Of a stretch of 39,095 nt of DNA, positions 20,656-24,778 are shown piece by piece. Source of the DNA: Actinomycetota bacterium. Its GTDB lineage: Bacteria; Actinomycetota; Acidimicrobiia; Acidimicrobiales; CADCSY01. Location: NCBI GenBank assembly GCA_019348495.1, contig JAHWJI010000011.1, positions 1 to 39,095 of the forward strand, written 5' to 3'. The notes under the pieces are model-generated. The model was given only the letters and a program-made list of their open reading frames with translations. It searched no databases and was not told the origin of the DNA. Within the stretch, counting starts at the first letter, position 1; every line of letters starts with the position of its first letter. Made by a program: the position numbers and the translations under genes.

Positions 20656-21138
20656 TCAGATCCGGCAGGTCGAGAGCCCCCGCTTCTCCAGGTACTGCTG
20701 GTGGTAGTCCTCGGCGGGCCAGAAGGTCGACGCCGGCGTGACCTCGGTGACGATGGCACGCCCGAAGCGTCCTGACGCCTCCAGCTCCTCGATCGAGCGC
20801 TGGGCGGCCTTCTGCTGGGCCTCGTCGTGGAAGTAGACGGCCGAGCGGTACTGGGTGCCCACGTCGGGACCCTGGCGGTTCAAGGTGGTGGGGTCGTGGT
20901 TGTCCCAGAACACCGACAGGAGGTCGTCGTAGGAGAGCCGCTCGGGGTCATAGGTCACCTGGACCACCTCGGCGTGGCCCGTGCGCCCGGTGCAGACCCG
21001 GCGGTACGTCGGCTCGTCCTTGGTGCCGCCCATGTAGCCCACGGCGGTGGCCACCACGCCGGGAACCTGGCGGTAGGCGGCCTCGATCCCCCAGAAGCAC
21101 CCGGCCCCGAACGTCGCTACCTCTTGCGCCATCGTCAT
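20656..21138 (-). CDS. msrA: Peptide methionine sulfoxide reductase A
   Basis: ATFGAGCFWGIEAAYRQVPGVVATAVGYMGG, FWDNHDPTTLNRQGPDVGTQYRSAVYFH. Confidence 0.97.
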   Translation of the reverse strand: MTMAQEVATFGAGCFWGIEAAYRQVPGVVATAVGYMGGTKDEPTYRRVCTGRTGHAEVVQVTYDPERLSYDDLLSVFWDNHDPTTLNRQGPDVGTQYRSAVYFHDEAQQKAAQRSIEELEASGRFGRAIVTEVTPASTFWPAEDYHQQYLEKRGLSTCRI

Positions 21139-21380
21139 CCACCCTCTCCGCCCGTTGGTCTGCCTGTCTCGAAGCTACGGGGCCGCTGGTCGTACTGGAT
21201 GTAGCGGGCCACCTGGGCGGCCCGCTCGGTGCTGTGCAGGCGGGCCACCAGGTGCAGGGCCATGTCGATGCCGGCCGAGACCCCGGCGGCGGTGACCACT
21301 TGGCCGTCGTCGACGAAACGGTCCTCGGGCCGGAGCTCGATGCGCTCTCCGAGCACCACGGCTATGGCCGGCCCGCTCAC
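21135..21380 (-). pseudogene. DJ-1/PfpI-family C-terminal fragment (about 81 aa)
   Basis: VSGPAIAVVLGERIELRPEDRFVDDGQVVTAAGVSAGIDMALHLVARLHSTERAAQVARYIQYDQRP...; nucleophile-elbow half missing. GTG overlaps the upstream stop, and its TGA overlaps the msrA ATG. Confidence 0.7.
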
Positions 21381-22810
21381 GTGGGGGAGAGAGGGCCGAA
21401 CTGGCCCTCGGTGGGCTCCGCTCAACAGAACCAGGGCTCGGTGAGGCGCGGCCTGCCCTGGGTCGAGCCGGCGGCGATGAGCTCCCCCTCGCCGGGATCG
21501 GCGGCGCCGGCGGCGCCCGGATCGGCGGCCTGGCGCACGGCCCGGCTGACGGCCAGGTACAGGCTGGCGGCCGGCTCGCCGGCATCGAGGCCGGCCTGCA
21601 CCTGCTCGGCCAGCTGGGCCTGGAGCTCGTCGACGCGCCGATCCGCCGCCGTCCAGGAGTAGCTGAGGCGCTCGGCGTCGTAGGACCCGAGGTGGGGGGC
21701 CATGTCGGGGTGGTCGACCAGCAGCGAGCCTTCGGGCACCAGCAGGCGGATGGTGTACTGCACGGGGTCGACGTTGGCGATGAGGTCGTGGGCAGCGACG
21801 AAGTCGACGAGGTCGACCAGGTCGGCGGGCGTGGTCCAGGGGGTGAAGGGCAGGAACGACGGCCGCACCTCGATGTTGTGGTCGCGGAGCACCCCGATGG
21901 CCTCGGCCGCCTGGGCGGCGGTGTGGCCCTTGTCCAGGCGGGCCAGGATGGCGTCGTTGACCGACTCCAGGGCCGAGACGACGAACAGGCAGCCAGCGGC
22001 GGCCATCGAGCCCCAGAGGCCACGGTGGCGCAGGATGAGCTCCACCTTGGTGGTGCAGTCGAAGGTGAGCTCGGGAAAGCGCTCGTGCATGGCCGCCACC
22101 ACCCGTCGGGAGTGGTGGACGCCGTTGAGGAAGTCGGGGTCGGCGAAGGTGATGTGGCGGGCGCCGGCCGCCACCAGTTGGGCGATGTCGGCCACGACCA
22201 CCTCGGGGCCCACCACCCGGATGCGCCCGTCGTAGACCGTGGGCACCGGGCAGTGCCGGCACCGGGAGGCGCAGCCGTGGCTGGCCTCCACCGCGCCGAC
22301 CAGGCGCTCCTCGCCGTCCACGGCGAGGTGGGCGTAGCGCTCGAGAGGCGGCAGCAGGTCGCGGGCGGGGACGTCGAAGTCGCTGCGCCCCAGGTGCACG
22401 ATCGGGCGGGTGTCGGCGGCCGGCGCCGGGCTCGCCGCGCCCCGGGCCGGGAGCCCGTCCACCCAGGCCAGCAGGGCGGGCTCGTACTCGCCGGCGATGA
22501 CCCGGTCGGCCACCGCCCGCAGGGTGGCGTCGGCGCTGACGGCGGCGTAGAGGCCGTAGAAGCACACGGGCAGCTCCGGGCGCTGGTGGCGTGCGGCGGT
22601 GGCCGCGGCCAGGGCCAGGCGCATGGCCGTGTGCATGGGCACCGAGAAGGCGACGGCGCTCGCCCACGCCACCAGCTCGGGGTCCCAGGGCTGGACCGAC
22701 AGGTCGAGGGCGGCCACGTCGTGGCCCCGGCGGCGAAGGGCGGCGGCGGGCGAGGCCACGTGCACCGGCTGGTGCCCGAGCTCGTAGGTCGAGACCAACA
22801 GCACCCGCAC
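21377..22810 (-). CDS. B12-binding-domain radical SAM protein with CUAEP tail; predicted selenoprotein (Sec at TGA 21424..21422, 477 aa)
   Basis: SHGCASRCRHCPVP (CxxxCxxC) and an N-terminal cobalamin-binding-like domain. The minus-strand codons at the end read GAG CCC TGG TTC TGT TGA GCG GAG CCC ACC GAG GGC CAG TTC GGC CCT CTC TCC CCC ACG TGA. Confidence 0.85.
21391..21409 (-). promoter_or_regulatory. Putative bacterial SECIS hairpin
   Basis: mRNA GAGGGCC-AGUUC-GGCCCUC: perfect 7-bp stem, 5-nt loop with G at loop position 2; stem begins 12 nt and loop begins 19 nt after the UGA. Confidence 0.75.
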
Positions 22811-22850
22811 CCGGTCACGCTACCGGGGAAGGCCCCCCACCCCCGTTCGA

Positions 22851-24077
22851 TCAGGAGGCTTCGATGACCACCTCGAGGTGGGCGTGGGCCCGACGCAGGG
22901 CGTCCTCCACCGCCTCAGGGGTGGGGGCCCGGGCGAAGAGGAAGCCGAGGTAGCGGTCGCCCTCGGGCAGGGCCCGCACGGGGCGCCCCCGGGCGATGGT
23001 CAGCTCCAGGCCCTCGATGCCGGGCACGGCCCGGGCGGACTCGACACCGCCCACCTCGACCAGGCAGCCCGAGCGGGGGATGGGCAGCATCATGACCCCG
23101 GCCGCCTGGTCCTCCCGGCGTAGACCGTCGAGGCCGAGGCCCAGGGCGTGGCGGAGGATGACCTCCTCCAGGGAGATGCCGGCACCGAAGCGCAGCGCCC
23201 GCGAGCACAGCCCCCCGATGGAGCGGGCGGCCACCTCCACCAGGCGGACGCCGTCGGCGCCGATGCGCACCTCGGCGTGCACCGGTCCCTCCACCAGGCC
23301 GAGGGCGGTGGCGCCGGCGGCCACCAGCCCGACCACCGCCTCACGGGTGGGGGCCGGGAGCCGCGAAGGGGTGACGTAGATGGTCTCCTCGAAGTAGGGG
23401 CCGTCGAGGGGGTCGGGCTTGTCGAACACCGCCAGGACCTCGAGCCGCCCGCGGGTGAGCAGGCCCTCGACAGCCACCTCGGGCCCGGCCACGAAGGACT
23501 CCACCAGCACCGGCCCTGTGGGGTCCTGGCCGGCGTCGGCCAGGATGGCCCGCACCCTGGACGCCGCCTCGGCGGCGGCGGCGGGGTCGTCGGCCCGCAT
23601 GACGCCCCGGCTACCCGACAGCGAGACCGGCTTGACCACGCAGGGCAGGCCCACCTCGGTGGCGAGGGCGGCCACGTCGTCGCCGGGTCGGGCCACCCGG
23701 AACGCGGGCTGGTCGACCCCGGCGGCGGCCAACGCCGTGCGGCTGCCCAGCTTGTCGCGCGTGGCGGCCACGGCGGTGGCCGGGTTGTGGGCCAGGCCCA
23801 GGCGCCCGGCGGCCAGGGCGGCGGCCAGCACGCCCTGTTCGTCGACGGCCACCACGGCGTCGACGGGGGACCGGTCGGCGGCGAAGGCGACGATGGCGGC
23901 GGCGGCGGCGTCGGGATGGTCGAGGGGCAGCACCAGGGCACGGTCCTCCATGGAGACGGCCATGGCCTGGCGATGCTCGGAGGCGACGACCACCTCGACC
24001 CCCAGGGCCGACGCGGCCCGCACGAAGTCGGTCGCCCGGTAGGTTCCGGTGGGCAGGATAAGGAGGACCCGGGGCAC
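22851..24077 (-). CDS. ATP-grasp domain protein
   Basis: GLPCVVKPVSLSGSRGVMRADD, VLVESFVAGPEVAVEGLL, GPVHAEVRIGADGVRLVEVAARSIGG. GTG start at 24077; same strand and directly upstream of the radical SAM gene. Confidence 0.9.
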   Translation of the reverse strand: MPRVLLILPTGTYRATDFVRAASALGVEVVVASEHRQAMAVSMEDRALVLPLDHPDAAAAAIVAFAADRSPVDAVVAVDEQGVLAAALAAGRLGLAHNPATAVAATRDKLGSRTALAAAGVDQPAFRVARPGDDVAALATEVGLPCVVKPVSLSGSRGVMRADDPAAAAEAASRVRAILADAGQDPTGPVLVESFVAGPEVAVEGLLTRGRLEVLAVFDKPDPLDGPYFEETIYVTPSRLPAPTREAVVGLVAAGATALGLVEGPVHAEVRIGADGVRLVEVAARSIGGLCSRALRFGAGISLEEVILRHALGLGLDGLRREDQAAGVMMLPIPRSGCLVEVGGVESARAVPGIEGLELTIARGRPVRALPEGDRYLGFLFARAPTPEAVEDALRRAHAHLEVVIEAS

Positions 24078-24094
24078 GGTCCTATCATGGGGGC

Positions 24095-24778
24095 ATGGCC
24101 GACGCGAGCGCTCCCGAGAACCTCGACCAACAGCCGGGCACGCCCGGCGAGGCGGTGCTGACGGTCACCGACCAGGCCCGCAAGAAGGTGGTGGCCCTGC
24201 GCCAGGGCGAGCCCAACGCCGAGTCGCTGGCCCTGTGGCTGGAGGTGACGGGAGTGGCCGGGTCCGAGTTCACCTACGACTTGTACTTCGACGCCCTCGA
24301 CCGGGCCCAGCCGGGCGACGCCGTGCAGCGCCATGACGACGTATCGGTCGTCATCCCCGCCGCCAGCGTCGACCAGCTCCGGGGGGCCACGCTGGGCGTG
24401 AGTCGCGACCTGCTCAACCCGGGCATGACCGTCACCAACCCCAACCGCCCCCCCCAACCGGCCAGCCCCTCGATCAGCGCCCGCCCGCCGGCCGACCTGA
24501 GCGGGGACGTGGCCCAGCGGGTGGCCCAGGTCATCGAAGCCCAGATCAACCCCAGCATCGCCTCCCACGGCGGCCAGGCCGAGCTGGTGGCGGTCGACGA
24601 CGGCACCGCCTACCTCCGCTTGAGCGGCGGGTGCCAGGGCTGCGGCATGGCCACGGTGACCCTCACCCAGGGCATCGAGGTGGCCATCCGGGAGTCGGTG
24701 CCCGAGATCACCCAGGTCACCGACGTGACCGACCACGCCAGCGGGGCCAACCCCTACTACGAGGCCGCCAAGAAATAA
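24095..24778 (+). CDS. nfuA: NfuA-like Fe-S biogenesis protein (IscA-like domain + NifU C-terminal domain)
   Basis: C-terminal NPSIASHGGQAELVAVDDGTAYLRLSGGCQGCGMATVTLTQGIEVAIRESVPEI (CxxC). Confidence 0.88.
   Translation: MADASAPENLDQQPGTPGEAVLTVTDQARKKVVALRQGEPNAESLALWLEVTGVAGSEFTYDLYFDALDRAQPGDAVQRHDDVSVVIPAASVDQLRGATLGVSRDLLNPGMTVTNPNRPPQPASPSISARPPADLSGDVAQRVAQVIEAQINPSIASHGGQAELVAVDDGTAYLRLSGGCQGCGMATVTLTQGIEVAIRESVPEITQVTDVTDHASGANPYYEAAKK

Follow-up and report, generated by a model that had tools for sequence, protein, structure and literature searches.

In the window, the whole stretch of 39,095 nucleotides that was analyzed, a radical SAM gene on the minus strand carries an in-frame UGA directly after the codon for Cys462, and a hairpin follows this UGA within the same frame. 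The question is whether the UGA ends the gene or is read as selenocysteine (Sec), and whether the hairpin is a bacterial SECIS (bSECIS) element. Based on the anatomy of the hairpin, the family of the protein, covariation among homologues, loss of the stem in Cys homologues, and the sel genes present in the same genome, the hairpin is almost certainly a genuine, functional-looking bacterial SECIS.

The radical SAM gene and its C-terminal tail

The gene product matches the NCBIfam model NF040546, "CUAEP/CCAEP-tail radical SAM (seleno)protein," over its full length at 559.6 bits (curated cut-off, 500 bits), and the match runs across the UGA (residues 3–472). The motifs CxxxCxxC and C-[U/C]-A-E-P are found as C180-x3-C184-x2-C187 and as C462-U463 near the C terminus; an alignment of 29 members shows no variation at C180, C184, C187, or the tail C462-C/U463. 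Additionally, Pfam assigns Radical_SAM and B12-binding domains to the product, and the AlphaFold2 model (pLDDT 89.5) has AprD4, OxsB, MgmA, and TsrM as its closest structures. What an earlier note on this DNA had called the tail is the CUAEP tail of an already catalogued family; the window gene is a member of NF040546, and no difference from the family was found. Among the papers searched, we found none naming CUAEP or describing its SECIS; Haft and colleagues, who wrote on new selenoprotein families, may mention CUAEP in their papers.

The next-best family is ArsL (NF040542), the radical SAM enzyme of arsinothricin biosynthesis (PMC8552651), with 287.2 bits over residues 3–406. ArsL has the same cluster motif, whereas the C-terminal Cys–Sec pair belongs to the CUAEP family. 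An ArsL identity was rejected, as the score lies under the 450-bit cut-off and the match ends before the tail.

Relatives of the ATP-grasp gene upstream occur at 60 of 80 homologous loci, and many of the remaining loci have cut flanks. The radical SAM and ATP-grasp genes may form a biosynthetic unit. On the other side, a GTG-started frame on the minus strand (21135–21378) overlaps the stop codon of the radical SAM gene and encodes a product resembling a DJ-1/PfpI C terminus. This frame has no Pfam match, a 31-residue piece of it was found at one homologous locus only (L008), and it is probably a gene remnant.

Table 1. Features of the radical SAM locus, in window coordinates
Feature	Position	Strand	Evidence
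Radical SAM / B12-binding-fold gene, predicted selenoprotein of 477 residues with Sec463	21377..22810	-	NF040546 at 559.6 bits; Pfam; invariant columns; AlphaFold2 model
Adjacent upstream gene, ATP-grasp / L-amino-acid-ligase-like; probable partner in an operon	22851..24077	-	Pfam ATP-grasp_4 and LAL_C2
In-frame UGA predicted to be read as Sec (residue 463, CUAEP tail)	21422..21424	-	Column holds Cys in 88 homologues and UGA in 65; flanks W-F-C and E-P invariant
Spacer of 12 nt from UGA to hairpin (codes A-E-P-T)	21410..21421	-	Constant length in 65/65 UGA homologues; ungapped alignment
Predicted bacterial SECIS hairpin	21391..21409	-	Direct reading; fold; stem covaries in the 65 UGA homologues and is lacking in the 88 Cys homologues
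5′ arm GAGGGCC	21409-21403	-	Part of hairpin, direct reading
Apical loop AGUUC	21402-21398	-	Part of hairpin, direct reading
3′ arm GGCCCUC	21397-21391	-	Part of hairpin, direct reading
Predicted tail encoded past the Sec codon: AEPTEGQFGPLSPT	21380..21421	-	Translation with TGA as Sec; NF040546 match crosses the UGA to residue 472
UGA predicted to be the actual stop of the radical SAM gene	21377..21379	-	Next in-frame stop in translation

Anatomy and folding of the hairpin

From the Cys462 codon, the minus strand reads TGT TGA GCG GAG CCC ACC GAG GGC CAG TTC GGC CCT CTC TCC CCC ACG TGA; past the first UGA (21424–21422), the frame continues for 14 more codons to a second UGA (21379–21377). The earlier note had claimed that a hairpin GAGGGCC-AGUUC-GGCCCUC follows the in-frame UGA, with a G in the first two loop nucleotides and the loop 20 nt downstream. 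Direct reading bears this out: the stem is a perfect 7 bp, the loop has 5 nt with G at position 2, and 19 nt lie between the UGA and the loop. The hairpin sequence is a single copy in the window, even when three mismatches are allowed.

The published bSECIS model (the Zhang and Gladyshev consensus, restated in Fig. 2 of PMC13188914) has a loop of 3–9 nt, a stem of 4–16 bp, and a UGA-to-loop distance of 16–37 nt. A G is among the first two loop nucleotides, usually with G or U after it, and the minimum free energy does not exceed −7.5 kcal/mol. The hairpin falls within this model in loop size, stem length, distance, and loop sequence, and its energy is −13.6 kcal/mol alone and down to −17.4 kcal/mol in longer segments, so the usual bSECIS geometry claimed for it is confirmed. 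Like the consensus element, it is a stem-loop in the coding sequence just 3′ of the Sec UGA, with G-U at loop positions 2–3; in the CUAEP family, unlike the consensus, the spacer is fixed at 12 nt and the stem is simple and unbroken.

In the 25-nt core, the hairpin has an ensemble frequency of 0.99 at −15.0 kcal/mol (z −3.97), and it is the minimum-energy fold of segments of 39–45 nt, at −17.4 kcal/mol. For a 58-nt segment starting at UGU, a competing fold, not the hairpin, is the minimum-energy structure; shorter or downstream-started segments fold to the hairpin. The folding energy lies 1.3–1.8 SD under that of shuffles for segments of 39–75 nt and 4.0 under for the 25-nt core. Single-sequence folding was counted as weak evidence in either direction.

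A palindrome of 19 nt with precisely this sequence is rare, but hairpins that satisfy the general rules are not. Among random sequences with the codon usage of the gene, 10.1% hold a hairpin of at least 7 bp that fits the position and G-in-loop rules, and recoding the tail peptide synonymously yields the exact in-register stem in 2.4% of cases. Because a rule-fitting hairpin occurs in a tenth of codon-matched random sequences, the window sequence alone is suggestive only. An Rfam scan of the window at gathering thresholds returned no matches; therefore, bSECIS elements are not recognizable by that route.

Comparison of UGA and Cys homologues

Homologues were collected from GTDB contigs and by searching genomes across the phylum and the class. 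The distinct sequences comprise 65 with UGA and 88 with a Cys codon in the same column, all aligned gap-free over 45 nt. In the UGA set, 93.0% of stem cells are paired in the register of the window, and 87 stem cells are changed on both sides. The earlier note had named a lack of stem covariation among Sec orthologues as grounds for refuting the SECIS reading, and the reading survived this test: in six of the seven pairs, both partners change and yet remain paired. The covariation score is 0.575; shuffles give 0.200, and sliding the 3′ partner by 1–3 columns gives no more than 0.163. Moreover, RNAalifold recovers six of the seven pairs unaided; it finds no conserved lower helix in the UGA-homologue alignment. 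In contrast, in the Cys set (n = 88), 38.6% of stem cells are paired, covariation is at shuffle level, and no consensus structure was found, in agreement with the stem loss for which the earlier note had suggested looking.

Counts by sequence follow the same division. All seven pairs are kept in 46/65 UGA homologues versus 0/87 Cys homologues, the inner five pairs in 59/65 versus 1/87, and at least six of the seven in 57/65 versus 4/89 Cys rows of the tree. G followed by G or U at loop positions 2–3, in the same register, is found in 65/65 UGA homologues versus 35/87 Cys homologues. Compensated stems include GCGAGCC/GGCUCGC (L134), ACCCGCC/GGCGGGU (L135), GACGAGC/GCUCGUC (L170), and GGGAGCC/GGCUCCC (L116). 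The tails of UGA homologues vary while pairing is kept (ADQFGSL, DRQLGGL, TRQLGGF, and DEQVARL); in L103, the stem is perfect although the peptide changes from QF to RS. The double constraint of protein and RNA that the earlier note had proposed is seen in the residues themselves, which track the stem (EG..GP, AD..GS, DR..GG, and TR..GG) in UGA homologues only. Collectively, the comparison of these homologous sequences puts the predicted element far beyond chance.

A GC-rich hairpin shortly 3′ of a stop codon is also the usual place of an intrinsic transcription terminator, and the UGA at 21422 might then be a plain stop followed by a terminator or a stabilizer of the mRNA end. However, the hairpin is followed by UCUCCCCC, with no U-run, and a scan of 20900–24300 gives no terminator-like site. 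In addition, coding sequence with family-level conservation continues across the UGA, the position of the hairpin is locked 12 nt after it, and the loop sequence is conserved. We give this alternative practically no weight, and the hairpin is better described as a putative SECIS within a gene that continues past the UGA.

Several UGA homologues deviate. The in-register stem is absent from L109 (2848–2892), where an 8-bp hairpin lies elsewhere with its loop 25 nt from the UGA, and from L154 (1463–1507), where a 7-bp hairpin lies elsewhere with its loop 29 nt from the UGA. Both positions fall within the bSECIS range, and these hairpins are possible relocated SECIS elements. The stem is weakened in L030 and L173. 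These four deviant sequences may be real variants or MAG errors. A further candidate for a divergent UGA form, L176 (283 bits, "1 TGA"), was rejected; it reads WFCCAAPPR-stop and is a Cys form. One genome (G032) holds two UGA-form CUAEP radical SAM genes, on contigs C35 and C72 (L096 and L175/L021), with the tails TEEQLAPY and TEGQFGAL. In a record titled Bifidobacterium breve (L040), the tail region of the CCAEP gene is almost identical to that of a Baikal Acidimicrobiia MAG (L057), and the species label is probably wrong.

A quick maximum-likelihood tree of 154 proteins was built with the Sec codon and the tail excluded; it is approximate, some long branches meet, and the counts taken from it are rough. 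On this tree, Sec and Cys interchanged at least 14 times, at least six of them on well-supported branches, and the stem pair type changed at least 37 times among UGA sequences. An independent-pairs test on supported branches had only six pairs, too few for significance (median p 0.125), with the direction almost always as expected.

Synonymous sites in the loop and the codon after UGA

The loop Gln codon is never CAA in UGA homologues (0/61, 10.8 expected), and a Leu that follows this Gln is always encoded by UUA or UUG (13/13, 1.0 expected in these GC-rich genes). In Cys homologues, CAA is used for Gln in 17/85 (21.7 expected), an avoidance that is not significant, and CUN codons are used freely for Leu with a mild UUR excess (11/39, 4.2 expected). 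As judged from these codon counts, the constraint on synonymous sites of the loop, which is found in UGA homologues only, fits the G-[G/U] rule of bSECIS elements and cannot be a protein effect.

The same counts bear on the possibility that protein constraint produces the stem as a by-product, in which case the peptide TEGQFGPL in a GC-rich genome would give complementary codons by chance. Conservation of the peptide near the window, together with the frequency of hairpins of at least 7 bp in random codon-matched sequences (10%), would allow such an origin. However, Cys homologues have WFC-C-AEPT..Q and the same protein function, yet show neither stem nor covariation. The residues of UGA homologues differ widely while pairing is kept, even in L103 with its RS, and the synonymous sites of the loop are constrained in UGA homologues only. 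A by-product of the peptide is thus scarcely credible, and it is the Cys-homologue control without a stem that refutes it; the stem would instead be maintained as RNA in a SECIS.

A second bias concerns the Ala codon right after the UGA (21421–21419 in the window). This codon is GCC in 1/61 UGA homologues, where 29.8 are expected from the usage of each gene, and in 37/74 Cys homologues, where 34.4 are expected and no bias is seen. The naive probability of the avoidance, 3e-18, is too small since the rows are related; even so, UGA and Cys homologues differ greatly at this codon. In a misfolding test, C at this site lowers the predicted formation of the hairpin; U lowers it equally, yet GCU is common. 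Moreover, the avoidance persists where the complementary UUCGGC is absent (0/37). Misfolding through pairing with UUCGGC is at best a partial cause because the common GCU is equally harmful and the avoidance is found without UUCGGC. Tentatively, the codon after the Sec UGA could be selected as RNA, as a second, unreported requirement for Sec decoding or against release or misfolding, a reading that we consider possible but somewhat doubtful.

Selenocysteine machinery and related elements

The genome of the window encodes SelA, SelB, tRNA-Sec, and SelD. The tRNA-Sec gene (selC) scores 67.8 bits, SelB (272.6 bits) adjoins SelA (376.4 bits) on one contig, and SelD scores 375.4 bits. Across genomes, selA was found in 26/28 with the UGA form versus 17/40 with the Cys form (Fisher p = 2e-5), and tRNA-Sec in 22/28 versus 16/40. 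Both selA and tRNA-Sec are missing from the assemblies of two UGA genomes, G394 and G405, of which the former is 78% complete.

Besides the radical SAM gene, at least two genes of this genome contain a UGA of this kind, selD and a homologue of formate dehydrogenase alpha (loci G000:C161:26739-27662, L193, and G000:C74:21844-22581, L196, respectively). The selD gene has its own UGA (HGAGUACK) with a candidate hairpin loop GGUCC, and the formate dehydrogenase alpha homologue has a UGA (ARIUHS) with a candidate hairpin loop GGUCU. With candidate loops GGUCC and GGUCU in addition to AGUUC, three genes in one genome would therefore share a G-U loop, at the same place, for one SelB. The formate dehydrogenase alpha hairpin also has the 12-nt spacer of the radical SAM gene, with a stem of 6 bp. 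The selD gene differs in that its best rule-fitting hairpin has the loop 32 nt from the UGA, with an extra strong hairpin between. In the E. coli fdhF element, a bulged U lies below the GGUC loop. Compared with that loop, the loop of the CUAEP family is usually AGUU[C/G] and less often AGGU[C/U] or GGU[C/U]C.

A hairpin that is SECIS by descent could also be a decaying remnant in a gene that is unexpressed or in a cell whose machinery is failing, and the source is a MAG assembly. Nevertheless, the stem is intact in 7/7 pairs, as are the G-U of the loop and the entire reading frame. The selA and selB genes lie side by side with selC and selD also present, and selD itself carries a UGA, so that Sec decoding has to work for its own donor to be made. 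Decay is in our judgment very unlikely, and the evidence points to a SECIS that is still maintained.

Proposed mechanism and significance

Collectively, the SECIS interpretation of the earlier note is supported by the comparison of homologues. In bacterial Sec decoding, the ribosome stalls at the UGA, SelB with GTP and Sec-tRNA meanwhile binds the apical loop, and Sec is inserted (PMC13188914). By analogy with this established process, once translation of the radical SAM gene arrives at the in-frame UGA, a complex of SelB, Sec-tRNA(Sec), and GTP would bind the apical loop just downstream, and Sec would be placed at the UGA in place of a release factor. The predicted product has a Cys–Sec pair (WFC-U-AEP) near its C terminus, and translation would run through the remaining 14 codons to the second UGA. 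This mechanism is ordinary and already known; the comparative support for it is unusually strong.

With the UGA as a predicted sense codon, annotation of the gene must extend beyond Cys462. The family provides a rich natural data set, in which 65 UGA homologues stand beside 88 Cys homologues with repeated Sec/Cys interchanges, and it could serve to test SECIS predictors and the specificity of actinobacterial SelB. In this family, the RNA signal and the encoded peptide appear to evolve together: the hairpin would dictate the protein tail, and the constraint is gone once Sec is replaced by Cys.
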